Assembly (NCBI RefSeq): GCF_002019735.1
Contig: NZ_KV917378.1
Location: 863,869 to 927,868 of the forward strand
DNA length: 64,000 bases
DNA from: Salipaludibacillus agaradhaerens
GTDB lineage: Bacteria; Bacillota; Bacilli; Bacillales; Salisediminibacteriaceae
Direction: 5' to 3'
Made by a program: the position numbers and the translations under genes. Position 1 is the first letter of the stretch. The number at the start of each line of letters is the position of its first letter. Positions 11,454 through 30,995 of this stretch are shown piece by piece. Under the pieces are notes generated by a model. The model did not search any database, was not told the origin of the DNA, and saw nothing but the letters and a program-made list of their open reading frames with translations.

Positions 11454-11658
11454 AAGATCACTTCCTCTTCTAATCATTAATTTGATCGTTTTAGCCGGTT
11501 TAAATTAACTTGTTAAGCGGTTCATATTAAGTGTAGCAAATTACTATGTTAAAATCTCGTCATACCTATGTATATTAAAAGAAACCTTTAGGTCTTGAAA
11601 ACACTGTTAAAACACATTAAAATAGGAATAGAATTGGGTGCGAAGGAGTGAAAACCGA

Positions 11659-11748
11659 ATGCCTCGTAAATTTAGAAAAGCCATTATTTATATGATGATC
11701 GGGATTATGTTTTTAGGCGCCGTATTAAGTGGAGTCGCTTATTTCTAA
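11659..11748 (+). CDS. prli42: Prli42-like membrane miniprotein
   Basis: 29-codon gene: basic head MPRKFRKAII, then one membrane helix (residues 9-27) ending in GVAYF. A clean GAAGGAGTG lies 8 bases before the ATG. Length, basic N-terminus and single C-terminal membrane segment match the stressosome-associated Prli42 family described in Listeria and annotated in many Bacillaceae, where it tethers RsbR-type stressosome proteins to the membrane. Placement next to the yqjE homologue agrees with my recollection of related genomes (uncertain). Followed 160 bases later by a hairpin shared with the L,D-transpeptidase gene. Confidence 0.75.
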   Translation: MPRKFRKAIIYMMIGIMFLGAVLSGVAYF

Positions 11749-11905
11749 TTGCTACTTATCGTTTAAGGAGACTCACACCTTATTGAGAGTAACCCTGCCT
11801 ATGGACAAACTAGTGGGGCCCATCCTAATATTTAACTCATTTTAGACAGGTTCCATAGATCTTGTGTAAATATAGGCAAATATTATACACGATTAACGAT
11901 ACACT

Positions 11906-11931
11906 AAAAGCAGCCAAGTTGGCTGCTTTTC
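11906..11931. terminator. Bidirectional terminator between prli42 and L,D-transpeptidase
   Basis: AAAAGCAGCC-AAGTT-GGCTGCTTTT: a 10-bp perfect stem with A/T runs on both flanks, placed between convergent genes. Confidence 0.85.
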
Positions 11932-11962
11932 ACTTTAAGACCCTACCTCTTTTATAACCATC

Positions 11963-12469
11963 TTATTCAATCGCGCCATGCTCTCTCCCTAATTCTTCGA
12001 AGTTTTTCTCACTAGATATTATTAAAATTTTAGTCCCAATAGGGATCACTTCATAAAGTATTTCTACATCTGAGTTATTAAGCCGGACACAGCCTTTCGT
12101 AATTCTTGATCCGATAGAAGAAGGCTGATTTGTACCATGAAGCCCAAATATTCTGCCATCAGTCCCATTTGCATCAAAGCCAATCCACCTAGTACCTAAT
12201 GGATTATCTTTGTCACCGCCCTCAATATCATGCTTTCGATAGTATGGATTCATTGCCTTTACTATAATATTAAACTCACCTTCAGGCGTTTGGTTGTATT
12301 CATGGCCGGTAGCTATTTGAAATTGTTGCTTCACTTCTCCTTCAACGATAAAAGCCAGTTCATTCGTTGCAGTATTTACGATAACGTATGGGTCTCCAAC
12401 CAGCGGGTTTTCACCAAGCGGCCATAAGGGGGACACAATGAGTAAAAATGATAACATAAAAGAAGCCAT
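11963..12469 (-). CDS. L,D-transpeptidase (YkuD domain)
   Basis: 168-residue protein: an N-terminal hydrophobic segment (FMLSFLLIVSPLWPL) that looks like a signal peptide, then a YkuD catalytic domain starting at YVIVNTATNELAF. The active-site region reads FGLHGTN ... ITKGCVRLNNSDVEIL, with the catalytic His and Cys of the HGT/SxGCxR signature. Such enzymes form 3-3 cross-links or modify peptidoglycan outside the membrane. No LysM domain is present, unlike B. subtilis YkuD. It lies 53 bases from yqjA on the same strand, so the two may be co-transcribed. Confidence 0.9.
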   Translation of the reverse strand: MASFMLSFLLIVSPLWPLGENPLVGDPYVIVNTATNELAFIVEGEVKQQFQIATGHEYNQTPEGEFNIIVKAMNPYYRKHDIEGGDKDNPLGTRWIGFDANGTDGRIFGLHGTNQPSSIGSRITKGCVRLNNSDVEILYEVIPIGTKILIISSEKNFEELGREHGAIE

Positions 12470-12522
12470 CCGTGATCACTCCGGTCTTTTCTTCTCAGTT
12501 TGCATAACTAGCTGTTATTTAT

Positions 12523-13491
12523 TCAACGAAATACCCGATATTCTTTTACTGGTTTAAATTGCTGTTTAATAATTAAATATTGATCCAATTCATAGACGAG
12601 ATGAGCTAAAGCGGATCTCGCTTCAAATTCATTTCTCGTAGTAGGAAGTGGCATTTGTTTAAAGGAAATTTTTAATTCTTCTAATTTTGTAATATAAATG
12701 TGAGCTGTATTTTCTGGATGAATACCTTCTGCTAACTCTTCCATATAATCAGCAAGCATGTCTGCTTGTTCTACATGATGCTCAATCGAAGTGAGAAGTG
12801 GCATCATTCGTTCAAAGATATCTAATTGCTTCTCTCTCATTTTAAAGTAATGATAGTAAACATCCTCATACCTAAAAATGTGGTTCTCCAAGTTTAGGAT
12901 TGCCTGATTTTTAGATTTTTCCAGCAAGGACACAGCTTCAGTAATTTCTTGGCCATTCCAATCACTGTCCCCGTCGCGTATATATTTTGCGAATTCATTC
13001 AATATTTTTGAAAAATACTTTTCAAGCTTAGCTTGCATCTCCTCTAATTGATTTTGTTTACTAGGCATATACATATTTACTAATAAGGCAAAACCAATTC
13101 CGATAACTATTAGAGCCAGTTCATTTACTATTAAGTTAACGCTCAGGTCACTTACAGTATAAATATGAAAGTTAATAACTGAACTCGTTACAATCCCACC
13201 CTGTACTTTAAGTATGAGTGTTGTAGGGATAAATAAAATAAGCAGTACAACAATTGATAATGGGTGATAACCAAGTATTTCAAAAACAAGGACAGCGAAG
13301 ATCATTCCAATAAGACAAGCTAAAAATCGTGCCCATGAGTCTTTCACAGATTTTCGTTTTGTTTTTTGCACACATAGGATGGTTATTATCCCAGCAGAAG
13401 CAAAAAAGTCAAGGTCAAGCCATTGAGCAATAGCCACTGCTCCTGCAGTCCCTAAAGCTGTTTTTAATGTTCTATATCCAATTTTAAACAT
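12523..13491 (-). CDS. yqjA: YqjA-type aromatic acid exporter family membrane protein
   Basis: 322-residue protein, the same length as B. subtilis YqjA. The first 145 residues hold about five to six membrane helices (for example TALGTAGAVAIAQWL, FLACLIGMIFAVLVFEIL, LSIVVLLILFIPTTLIL, LIVNELALIVIGIGFALLV); the rest is a charged, helical cytoplasmic domain (EEMQAKLEKYFSKIL...EHHVEQADMLADYMEELAEG). This is the DUF939/FUSC-like arrangement. Export of aromatic acids is a family-level guess from distant relatives; no substrate is shown. The start ATG is followed immediately by the first helix. Confidence 0.88.
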   Translation of the reverse strand: MFKIGYRTLKTALGTAGAVAIAQWLDLDFFASAGIITILCVQKTKRKSVKDSWARFLACLIGMIFAVLVFEILGYHPLSIVVLLILFIPTTLILKVQGGIVTSSVINFHIYTVSDLSVNLIVNELALIVIGIGFALLVNMYMPSKQNQLEEMQAKLEKYFSKILNEFAKYIRDGDSDWNGQEITEAVSLLEKSKNQAILNLENHIFRYEDVYYHYFKMREKQLDIFERMMPLLTSIEHHVEQADMLADYMEELAEGIHPENTAHIYITKLEELKISFKQMPLPTTRNEFEARSALAHLVYELDQYLIIKQQFKPVKEYRVFR

Positions 13492-27548: not shown

Positions 27549-27803
27549 ATGACATTTCAACGCTTTATTGCTTTGATTATTCTGCTTATCCCTATATTTA
27601 CAGCGGGTTACGGCATAAAGTTAATGCGGGACACATTATTCGGCCAGTTAATTTCCCCTTACCAGACACTTTATGTCCAGTTTTTTGTTGGTATCATCGC
27701 TCTCGCTGTTGGTATCTGGCTTATCGGCGGCTTCATTTTGCATAGAGATCGTAAAAATAATAAAGTCGCGCCTAGATTTCAGAATAAAAAAACACCTAGT
27801 TAA
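27549..27803 (+). CDS. yqzF: YqzF-type small membrane protein (DUF2627)
   Basis: 84 residues with two membrane helices (RFIALIILLIPIFTAGYGI and LYVQFFVGIIALAVGIWLIGGFIL) and a basic C-terminal tail HRDRKNNK. This matches the DUF2627 family (YqzF), found next to bkdR in B. subtilis and here divergent from it. AGAGAAAGGA precedes the ATG. Function unknown. Confidence 0.85.
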   Translation: MTFQRFIALIILLIPIFTAGYGIKLMRDTLFGQLISPYQTLYVQFFVGIIALAVGIWLIGGFILHRDRKNNKVAPRFQNKKTPS

Positions 27804-27930: not shown

Positions 27931-28587
27931 TTATCTATCGTTAAGATAATGATCGTAATGACTATTCCGCTGAAAATCAACACTTTCTACACCTTTATAA
28001 CCTTCAATACCAGTCGATAAAAAGCCTTCAATCTCTTCTACATAGCCAATTAGTTCACTATTCTCATCAAGTGATGAATCCTCGAATACCATAGAAAGTT
28101 CATTAAAACGTGCGACAGCTTGCCAAGCGTCTTCAGCATCAAATTGTGTTTCATCTTCTGCTTTATCAAAATTAAACTTCCTAAAATCCTCCAACACACC
28201 CTCCTCAGCTGGCCGAGAAAAATGATGATTGTTATCTGCATGTTGGATGATCGTTCTCGCCGTTGGTTTCGCTTCTAAACGTTCATAAGGAATTTTTTGA
28301 CCGGTGACTTCACAAATACCATAGGTCCCATTTGCAAATTTACTTAAAGCATGCTCAATGGCATTTAACTCGAGAACGACCTGCTCATGAAGCGCAATAT
28401 CTTTTTCCCTTTCATAAAGATCTGTGGCGCTATCTGCTGGATGATTATCATATTGTGATAATTCACCTGACGAATTACTTGACGCAAATCCACGGGAAAG
28501 TCCATAATCATCAGACGTCTTTAATCGCTCACTTAATATTTTTTTCTGTTCTTCAAGCTTATTTTTCAAACGAGCATAATCTTCCAT
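27931..28587 (-). CDS. DksA/TraR-like protein of the YteA type with degenerate zinc finger
   Basis: 218 residues. N-terminal coiled coil (YARLKNKLEEQKKILSERLK), YDNHPADSATDLYEREKDIALHEQ and the region YGICEVTGQKIPYERLEAKPTA which is where DksA/TraR/YteA proteins carry a four-cysteine zinc finger. Here only the first Cys remains; the others read Thr, Ile and His-like positions, so zinc is probably not bound. The C-terminal part (DEDAWQAVARFN-type, GYVEEIEGFLSTGIEGYKG) follows Bacillus YteA homologues. Possibly a sporulation or general-stress protein (by family). Start has GGGGAG upstream. Confidence 0.78.
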   Translation of the reverse strand: MEDYARLKNKLEEQKKILSERLKTSDDYGLSRGFASSNSSGELSQYDNHPADSATDLYEREKDIALHEQVVLELNAIEHALSKFANGTYGICEVTGQKIPYERLEAKPTARTIIQHADNNHHFSRPAEEGVLEDFRKFNFDKAEDETQFDAEDAWQAVARFNELSMVFEDSSLDENSELIGYVEEIEGFLSTGIEGYKGVESVDFQRNSHYDHYLNDR

Positions 28588-28802
28588 TATTTCTCCCCTT
28601 TCATGCTCTGTCTTTTAACTTGAGGAAGCCTTTTTTAACTCCTCATAATTAGCTTTTCCCCCTTCTCTTTCTTTAGAGGTATAAGTTATTGTCAATTTAC
28701 TTTTTAACGAGGAGCAAAAAACCAATAAATCAGTTTAATTTATTGGGCGGTAAAGCTAGAATTGCTAAATTATGAGTGATAAGTTAAAACAGTTGTTGTC
28801 AC

Positions 28803-28903
28803 TTAACTAAACTTATGTTGAATACGTAGTTTATTTGCAATCATCGGATAAATCCGGAATTCATCGGTTTTGTTTTATGACTGTTGACTCCAACTGAAAT
28901 CAT
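28803..28903 (-). pseudogene. Frameshifted remnant of a second spo0A 3' end
   Basis: Translation of the minus strand gives VNSHKTKPMNSGFI, then, after a one-base deletion near 28845, MIANKLRIQHKFS and a stop. This aligns with the Spo0A C-terminus [16 protein letters not shown] then [12 protein letters not shown]: 18 of 28 residues identical by hand, about 71 percent at DNA level, with the stop at the same place. Only the last 30 or so codons remain. AAGGAG precedes an ATG at 28903, so a 20-codon mini frame (28841-28903) could still be translated. Lies 1.0 kb downstream of intact spo0A. Confidence 0.8.
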
Positions 28904-28916
28904 TGTTTCTCCTTGA

Positions 28917-29267
28917 TTATGACCGCAAAATCTTTTCCATTGCTTTTCCTTTTGCTAACTCATCTATCAATTTATCCAAATAGCGAATTTCCTGCATAGT
29001 TGGTTCCTCGATGTCTTCCACGCGGATACCGCAGATCACTCCTTTGATCAAAGTCCGGGAAGGATTCAGTTGGGGAGATTCCGCAAAAAAGGTCTCAAAG
29101 TTTGTCTGTTTTTCCAGTTGAGCCTCTAACTCTTCCTGGCTATACCCTGTCAGCCAACGGATGATCTCATCCACTTCTGTTTTTGTTCGTCCTTTTTTCT
29201 CCGCCTTTGTAACATAATGCGGATAGACTTTTGCTACACTCATTGTATATATTTGATGTTTAGTCAT
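28917..29267 (-). CDS. DUF2200 family protein
   Basis: 116-residue basic, helical protein: [102 protein letters not shown]. This is the typical full-length DUF2200 pattern seen in many unrelated bacteria, with no proven function. It lies 14 bases upstream of the spo0A remnant and downstream of a stretch without genes, suggesting insertion into this locus by recombination (inference). Confidence 0.88.
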
Positions 29268-29754
29268 TATATATACTTTCCCTTCCTTATATTTATAGTT
29301 TGAAAAAATAATCGGGTTTCTTGTTCTTTGGTAGTAGTGGCTATCGCATTTATTTTCGCCAAAAAGTAGAACAATTTGTCTTATCCCAAATTCATTTTCT
29401 CAAGAAGTGGGTAATCACGTGGATCACTGCAAAAGATACGTGTACGTTACAGCTCCTTTATGTAGCCATATCCAACCTTCACAATTTCATCCTTATCGTC
29501 ACACTTTCAGGGGCGAAAGAATCTGCTTTATAGATACACTAAAACCGATAATAATTGTACCATGATCCGTAACATTAGCAGAGTTGGCTTCACAGCTAGT
29601 CGATAAAAAGAGACTAATTCCCGCCTCTGATATGGAGAAAATATGCGTTCTCATCGATTAAGGACCAGGTAAGAATCCGATTAGAAAATTTCTCTTTAAT
29701 AGCATTAGCCATGTCATGACTCGATATTATTAACAAGTTCCGTTCAATATCACA
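29268..29754. other. Gene-poor region with possible decayed coding remnants
   Basis: No intact gene. On the minus strand, 29477-29482 back to about 29360 reads VKVGYGYIKEL, stop, then ... [11 protein letters not shown], stop, DKLFYFLAK, which faintly recalls the N-terminus of a serine recombinase but is too weak to call. A second open stretch (29720 to 29625, ANAIKEKFSNRILTWSLIDE) is unidentified. The + strand frame 29321-29533 lacks a start site and family signature. Confidence 0.4.
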
Positions 29755-29797
29755 AAAACCCCCTACTACCGGACATGTCCAATAAACAGGGGGTTAC
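29755..29797 (-). terminator. Terminator after spo0A
   Basis: AACCCCCT/AGGGGGTT 8-bp GC-rich stem with a 23-base loop containing a small inner pairing; followed on the minus strand by TTTTTGTG. Confidence 0.88.
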
Positions 29798-29812
29798 TTC
29801 GTAAGATATAAT

Positions 29813-30607
29813 TTAACTTACCTTGTGTTCGATACGTAATTTATCTGCAACCATGGCAATAAATTCAGAATTTGTTGGCTTTGCTTTTGAAACATTTACT
29901 GTATAGCCGAACATTTTAGAAATGGATTCAATGTTTCCTCGACTCCATGCTACTTCGATGGCATGCCGGATCGCCCGCTCCACACGACTAGCTGTCGTAT
30001 TGAACTTCTTGGCTATGTCTGGATAGAGAACTTTTGTAATTGAACCGAGTAATTCAATATCATTGTACACCATAGTGATCGCTTCTCTTAAATACATATA
30101 ACCTTTAATATGAGCTGGTACACCGATTTCATGAATAATACTTGTTATACTCGCATCTAAATTCATCGGCTTATTCTCACGTCGCAATTCTGCTGCTGAA
30201 GTTGCCGATCTATGGCTATAGGTATTATTGCTTTGACCAGACACATCTCTAATTTTATTCATTAAAGTATCCATATCAAACGGTTTTAAGACATAATAAG
30301 CTGCTCCAAGATCAACTGCTTTTTTAGTAACATCTTCCTGTCCAAAGGCAGTTAACATAATAATACTTGGACGCTTTTCAAGGTTTAATTCGTTTAATTT
30401 TTCTAGAACAGCAAGCCCATCTAAATGAGGCATTATAATATCAAGAATAAGTACATCAGGCTGCACTTCTTCAACAACATTTAAACATTCCTGACCGTTA
30501 TATGCTTTTCCAACCACATCCATATCCTCTTGTGATAGAATATAATCCTCTAAAAGATTCACCAATTCACGGTTGTCATCTGCTACACACACTTTTACTT
30601 TTTCCAC
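29813..30607 (-). CDS. spo0A: Stage 0 sporulation response regulator Spo0A
   Basis: 264-residue master regulator of sporulation. Receiver domain residues 1-125 with acidic pocket VADDN (Asp10-Asp11), phosphorylation Asp56 in [13 protein letters not shown], and Lys in [10 protein letters not shown]; a variable linker; effector domain with the extremely conserved [59 protein letters not shown] (HTH) and [21 protein letters not shown]. The GTG start is chosen, as in B. subtilis: GGGAGG lies 9 bases upstream and the longer in-frame ATG is inside the sigma-H promoter. Phosphorelay-driven, controlled by its own boxes. Confidence 0.97.
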
Positions 30608-30649
30608 ACTATTGCCTCCCCAAATAATTTTTGTACTGTCTCTGTCTTC

Positions 30650-30678
30650 ATATTCGACAACCACTATTTAAATCCTTT
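30650..30678 (-). promoter_or_regulatory. Sigma-H promoter of spo0A with overlapping 0A box
   Basis: Minus strand AAAGGATTT (-35), 11 bases, GTCGAATAT (-10) match the sigma-H consensus RNAGGAWWW/RNNGAATWW. TTGTCGAA within the -10 (30653-30660) is also a 0A box. The start of transcription would be about 35 bases before GTG. Confidence 0.8.
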
Positions 30679-30679
30679 T

Positions 30680-30995
30680 AATTTTTTATTTTTTTCTAAA
30701 TAATCTTTGATTTACTCTCATTTAATCAAAAATACTCATGAATTCGACCGCTTTCGATTTATACTGTGTTATTATTTAGCGTTTGTCGAATAATCTTTAT
30801 AGATAGTATAGCATATCTCGCCCATAAAACGAATTATGAATCTGTGAGTGTTTCGTACTCCTCCGAATGGTCATTACGCGAATCCGACATTAGCGTCCGT
30901 TATCTCCCACCTAAATAAATTTAGCACTTCTCGAGCCGGAAGTTTTGAACGCATAAAATCCTGCTCTTTCATTCCAAATACATATTTCCAAACGA
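30680..30995. other. Upstream control region of spo0A
   Basis: About 300 bases without a gene. It holds a perfect 0A box TTTGTCGAA (30782-30790, + strand orientation), a partial one (GGTCGAA on the minus strand near 30754) and a TATACT that could be the -10 of a vegetative promoter near 30806, as in B. subtilis where two spo0A promoters exist. No other gene seen. Confidence 0.5.

Follow-up and report, generated by a model that had tools for sequence, protein, structure and literature searches.

A decayed second spo0A 3' end in Salipaludibacillus agaradhaerens is probably the attachment-site scar of a phage element that integrated into spo0A

A short segment behind the spo0A gene of Salipaludibacillus agaradhaerens is very probably the attachment-site scar of a decayed phage element that used spo0A as its integration site. 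In the stretch of 64,000 nucleotides analysed here (the window; contig NZ_KV917378.1, positions 863,869 to 927,868), the minus strand of 28803-28903 carries the last ~26-30 codons of spo0A in decayed form, in the same orientation as the intact gene, which ends at 29813, and 1 kb away from it. This copy is most likely the native end of spo0A, displaced by an ancient integration, and by its position it is the far copy of the pair. The features of the locus are listed below; G000 denotes the window's own genome, and G006 and G007 the two sister species within a genus set of eight members.

29813-30664, minus strand: intact spo0A, with Response_reg and Spo0A_C domains; open reading frame from a GTG, with the conserved protein start at about 30619
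29813-29905, minus strand: last ~93 bases of the working spo0A, probably supplied by the element, by analogy with intact elements
29754-29793, minus strand: hairpin and T-run directly behind spo0A, resembling the leader ahead of the integrase in intact elements
29268-29753, minus strand: non-coding stretch at the integrase position of intact elements, with no integrase trace above background in the window
28917-29267, minus strand: DUF2200 gene (PF09966), a host-type gene, by position inside the former element
28841-28903, minus strand: 20-codon mini-frame with an AAGGAG site, present in the window sequence
28803-28880, minus strand: relic of the spo0A 3' end (putative displaced attachment-site copy), from local DNA alignment, with a weak trace further upstream
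28716-28746, minus strand: hairpin and T-run behind the relic, either native or the leader of a second element
27931-28587, minus strand: YteA/DksA-like zinc-finger gene, adjoining spo0A in just three of the eight genus members (G000, G006 and G007)
27549-27803, plus strand: DUF2627 gene, a native neighbour, directly after spo0A in the five insertion-free members of the genus

Read from 28880 to 28803 on the minus strand, the relic is the counterpart of the last 78 bases of spo0A. Its local DNA alignment with the spo0A 3' end scored 60, the runner-up place in the window reaching 29 (360-base tiles on both strands, excluding those starting at 29300-30700), and with looser gap costs 98 of 130 aligned bases were identical. 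Small gaps shift the frame, and the stop codon stands at the spo0A-equivalent position. The first-pass annotation, which had described a decayed second spo0A 3' end with a frame shift and the same stop, is thus borne out by this alignment and by the occurrence of the relic in sister G006. Upstream of the relic only 20 bases are left in the window, the scores of which were reached by 41 and 35 of 200 shuffles. Between the yteA and DUF2627 genes no third copy of the spo0A end was found (scores 14 and 15). The genome has a single full spo0A: the other 39 matches to Spo0A are at most 43% identical and none extends to the C-terminus of the query, the furthest residue matched being 215 of 283.

By eye, the mini-frame starts in the sequence flanking DUF2200 on its 3' side and continues into the relic across a gap where bases that are kept in G006 have been deleted, an automatic alignment placing those bases differently. 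Sequence comparison found the frame in neither of the two sisters, so that the earlier suggestion that a peptide is still made from it finds no support, and a conserved small peptide was rejected on the same ground.

Comparison with the sister species and the rest of the genus indicates that something was inserted at this place. In G006 (L037) the relic lies between the same two genes and shows different damage, including about 43 extra bases; in G007 it is absent. On the other hand, G007 carries, behind spo0A and at the expected place, a decayed N-terminal integrase fragment, with a score of 67.8 in a frame-tolerant alignment (60 shuffles gave a mean of 27.2 and a maximum of 35.1, and 142 window tiles a maximum of 41.7) and a tblastn E of 0.001, the standard profile search giving a weak signal (i-E 0.071 and 3.2). 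No integrase trace was found in the window or in G006, where the scores of 29.1 and 25.4 were reached by 6 and 29 of 60 shuffles, respectively. The hairpin and T-run behind the working spo0A are common to G000, G006 and G007. In the window, the fold of 29745-29800 has an energy of -20.8 kcal/mol (z -3.59), although the hairpin at 29754-29793 went unlisted in one hairpin scan owing to its loop limit. In each of these three species the stretch behind spo0A resembles the element leaders with a score that none of 200 shuffles reached, the three leaders being related by descent and not independent, whereas in the five insertion-free genus members the likeness was reached by 8, 32, 141, 159 and 180 of 200 shuffles. 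No single species has both kinds of trace, since the window and G006 have only the att relic and G007 only the integrase trace, and the full set is found only in the three species combined. With integrase remains lacking in the window and G006 and found only in G007, the assignment as a scar rests on the clade and not on the window alone.

The site is empty in G001-G005, in which the DUF2627 match starts about 55-255 bases behind the spo0A match and neither DUF2200, the YteA-like gene nor the relic is present at the spo0A locus. The window clade thus carries an insertion between spo0A and DUF2627. No recognisable phage genes lie between the two copies in the window, where DUF2200 is the sole gene. 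DUF2200, present in 23 of 35 family genomes, is of host type, and seven phage records match the window within this gene. Of the five insertion-free genus members, G004 lacks it and the other four have it elsewhere in the genome; at the spo0A locus it was found only in G000, G006 and G007 among 115 listed loci (spo0A with flanks, including some genomes twice and some short flanks). Relatives of YteA are located elsewhere in all five other genus members. In the window clade the DUF2200 and YteA-like genes flank the relic, one on each side, and they may be cargo or later arrivals. The flank behind the relic has a weak likeness to the element leaders, reached by 4 and 3 of 200 shuffles in a comparison in which only the observed side included G335 and G077, and it is possible that a second, tandem element once stood there.

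In Alkalicoccus urumqiensis (L100, the same contig as L167 of G011) a perfect 74-base repeat of the spo0A end surrounds a 1.7 kb insert, the first feature of which is the N-terminal portion of a tyrosine recombinase. Repeat and recombinase together led to an order-wide search with the last 43 residues of Spo0A, which matched 389 of 397 genomes, 23 of them at least twice. A partial second copy, downstream on the same strand at 0.9-42 kb, is found in 17 of these 23 (G038, G338, G407, G260, G171 and G163, in which the second match is not downstream, were left out), and 12 of the 17 have an integrase of one family behind spo0A. Scars are undercounted by this search, since the window relic is too decayed for it and G000 gave one match.

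In the genomes with the integrase, near and far copies are identical at 105/109 bases in G173, 203/207 in G182, 91/91 in G412, 96/100 in G204, 89/90 in G380, 115/126 in G355, 105/105 in G361, 88/90 in G254, 93/93 in G250, 95/99 in G277, 92/93 in G240 and 65/65 in G017, so that these 12 elements are bounded by near-perfect direct repeats. Where no intact integrase is present the figures are 74/74 in G011, 60/67 in G077, 57/64 in G116, 54/71 in G243 and 49/56 in G335, which has another piece with 52/60; the repeats of G335 and G243 are decayed. These five genomes hold short scars, those of G077, G116, G243 and G335, of 0.8-2.9 kb, being comparable to that of the window and yielding no integrase in the open reading frame list or the profile search. 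Relative to the spo0A stop, the repeats start at -93 to -104 in ten genomes, at -133 in G182 and at -54 to -69 in the other six. Because ten of the 12 integrase elements have repeats starting at -93 to -104, the corresponding near stretch of the window is read as element-supplied, and the similarity of the relic, which extends past -60 to -78, fits this first group of repeat edges.

In 12 of the 17 genomes the far copy is followed by genes that natively adjoin spo0A (GlpQ-like, DUF2627, bkdR), and none was found in the 2.6-3.8 kb behind the far copy of G182, G412, G254, G250 and G277. In G182 (L187) and G250 (L197) a further piece of a same-family integrase lies behind the far repeat, which indicates that elements can stand in tandem. 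As to content, three elements were considered, each annotated in part, and all of them enclose phage genes within their repeats: G240 has those for terminase, portal, head, sheath, tape measure, baseplate and endolysin, G380 has tail genes, and G017 encodes a tape measure and a head protein. The G240 prophage, integrated at spo0A, also has a phage sigma factor family match (phrog_5767; L199:4292-5962), which is noteworthy with regard to the control of sporulation. The last two codons and the stop of near and far copies were compared in 15 of the 17 genomes (G335 and G243 excluded): they differ in DNA with the same residues in G412, G204, G380, G254 and G077, differ in protein too in G116, and are identical in DNA in nine. 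This pattern of codon changes suggests that the near copy, if phage-borne, has its coding end kept functional. An arm-site motif occurs 10 times in the near flanks (shuffle mean 0.29) and 9 times in the far flanks (0.17), counts that are descriptive only, the motif having been chosen by eye on the same flanks.

A profile built from ten of the spo0A-adjacent integrases (A1) matched 12 of the 397 order genomes at E<=1e-70, all 12 matches lying behind spo0A and all 12 genomes carrying a second spo0A end. As the profile was built from integrases at spo0A, these matches are not independent of it. The matches in a class-wide sample are independent: eight of 398 genomes matched at E<=1e-60, of which G204 had already been counted, and in each of the seven new ones the integrase directly follows a spo0A end and a second copy is present (in G693 and G716 the far copy matches all 43 residues and is longer than in the order genomes). 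The total is therefore 19 genomes, with the integrase following spo0A in 18 and a partial spo0A copy in one (G515), and with the second spo0A end downstream on the same strand in all 19, 2-42 kb away. In G515 the second copy is the very piece that precedes the integrase, the full spo0A being found 2.2 kb further up, and no third copy was detected. The integrase starts 9-166 bases after the spo0A stop, on the same strand, in the ten undisrupted cases listed; in G355 a transposase-like gene lies between the two, the integrase of G250 has two stops and that of G412 is cut short.

By Pfam the integrases are tyrosine recombinases, with PF00589 and a SAM-like N-terminal domain, and R199, K224, H289, R292, H315 and Y325, which we take to be the catalytic residues, are invariant in the ten-row alignment. 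In a phylogenetic tree 28 members (two of them copies of the integrases of G240 and G277) form one group apart from four distant viral integrases, with a support of 0.975. The G204 integrase gave no match in a phage collection at E<=1e-30 or in a plasmid collection at E<=1e-50. A further 16 viral contigs were obtained from IMG/VR, ten close and six distant. Among the close ones, L222 and L228 have only the last 19-20 codons of spo0A ahead of the integrase, no spo0A body having been found upstream, and in L222 a tail protein and an amidase precede the spo0A end and the integrase. This layout would be the one expected for attP if the phage carries its own spo0A end, and a prophage in tandem would show it as well. 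In L230 the spo0A end is longer, like that of an integrated copy, and the other seven close contigs begin less than 60 bases from the integrase and are uninformative. Near the integrase, L222 also has an Abi-alpha-like abortive infection gene (phrog_1841; 11631-13325).

Several other spo0A-like sequences were encountered. G004 has a second full-length spo0A, 83% identical, on another contig (contig 3; L044:7081-7866), away from the spo0A locus and preceded by two genes which by their look are presumably a BlaR1/BlaI-type pair, and long frames occur elsewhere in G038, G338 and G407. A stand-alone frame of 131 codons resembling the Spo0A C-terminal domain lies in G163 (L181:896-1288), 89 kb from spo0A and among small frames without identity. 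In G171 (L183) a decayed fragment matching the 3' end of spo0A lies about 1 Mb away from the gene and might be a scar that has moved. Finally, a Spo0A-like C-terminus, at 46-63% identity, is encoded in eleven phage records that come from human faeces and lack annotation.

These observations are consistent with the following series of events. Temperate phages of Bacilli would possess a tyrosine recombinase that acts specifically on the spo0A 3' end and would carry their own spo0A end, of about 20 or more codons plus the stop. A crossover within the 3' end would join the body of the host spo0A to the phage-borne end, leaving Spo0A intact, and upon integration the native end would come to lie beyond the prophage. 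Integration of an element of this type in the ancestor of the window species, its copy of the spo0A end replacing that of the host, would have been followed by decay; the leftovers would be the relic as the displaced end, the stretch behind spo0A as the probable leader terminator, and the part of the integrase in G007.

It could also be the case that spo0A was duplicated in tandem in this lineage and that the second copy was then lost except for its last ~30 codons, as two copies in the same orientation 1 kb apart might suggest. The sequence upstream of the G006 relic bears on this point. Compared with the spo0A body at loose gap costs it scored 188, which 3 of 200 shuffles reached, and a longer decayed spo0A copy at that place is possible on this alignment, but at standard gap costs 68 of 200 shuffles reached the score. 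Moreover, the identity of G006 to spo0A per ten bases is 9 at -75, 1 at -85, 7 at -95 and only 0-3 further up without gaps, so that the left edge of the relic is blurred. The short second copy was found in 17 of 397 genomes, 12 of them with the integrase, G007 has its integrase fragment, and no genome examined has a longer copy at this place, all of which makes the duplication very unlikely. The former presence of a whole second spo0A, as put forward in the first-pass annotation, is not upheld either, since a full copy was found at the place of the relic in none of the genomes examined and the relatives have partial copies. Of the two origins that had been proposed, a tandem duplication or the acquisition and loss of a divergent spo0A, what stands is that the decayed copy probably came with DNA acquired from outside.

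Such DNA might instead have been chromosomal, taken up for example by transformation with DUF2200 and the 3' end of a donor spo0A, and fixed by homologous recombination in spo0A on one side. The position of DUF2200, between the copies here and elsewhere in four of the five insertion-free genus members, is in agreement with an import of this kind. The integrase fragment behind spo0A in G007, the likeness of the leaders to those of the elements and the restriction of DUF2200 at spo0A to G000, G006 and G007 among the 115 listed loci are not, and we consider it improbable. Chance resemblance or an unrelated conserved element is practically ruled out by the score of 60 against 29 for the next best place and by the same relic in G006.

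The scar of a phage element integrated at spo0A, which is the reading we prefer, belongs to a kind of integration that is already known. Among prophages and islands there are many that insert into the 3' end of a conserved gene, such as a tRNA gene, ssrA or icd, and restore it with their own copy of that end. The elements described here are like them in that a direct repeat of the 3' end flanks the element, with the integrase at the gene-side border, the gene intact and the second end at the far border; they differ in the target, spo0A being the master regulator of sporulation. Skin-like elements interrupt sporulation genes (sigK and, in the case of yin, yabG). Prophage-derived DNA at a sporulation gene with att repeats is common to both, but skin and yin must leave for the gene to be whole, while spo0A is whole with the element in place. 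With regard to the recombinase, the XerC/XerD-type families (NCBIfam NF040815, TIGR02224, TIGR02225) and PHROG phrog_1 share PF00589 and the SAM-like N-terminal domain, whereas the three integrases tested here all score lower than each of the NCBIfam cut-offs reported. For the yin element, the att repeats and the excision of the prophage-derived DNA from its sporulation gene are described in PMC10747680. In the open-access literature no mention was found of spo0A serving as an attachment site or having a dedicated integrase family, a survey of regulated gene integrity being outside this coverage, and no description of spo0A as such a site was found in PMC10538166, PMC10747680, PMC11063209 and PMC12424338. 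Island databases may contain these sites without naming them. The target spo0A and the dedicated family across Bacilli were thus not found described.

The 19 genomes with the integrase and the five with scars indicate that temperate phages have repeatedly used the 3' end of spo0A as a landing site, and they point to an integrase family whose attB would be a protein-coding sequence conserved among endospore formers. Short spo0A repeats can be att scars rather than duplicated regulators. The phages stand directly behind the sporulation switch and, if the crossover is as proposed, would supply part of its coding sequence. Taken jointly, the data allow a more speculative picture, which we put forward only tentatively and regard as rather unlikely in its entirety: a phage lineage across Bacilli would be at home in spo0A, at least the last 20 residues of Spo0A and the terminator being phage-derived in lysogens, and the position of the integrase behind spo0A, on the same strand and past the leader hairpin, could tie integration, excision or spore trapping to the decision to sporulate. 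The C-terminal tail of Spo0A would in that case be swapped between hosts, and the window species would have kept the phage end and terminator after the loss of the phage.
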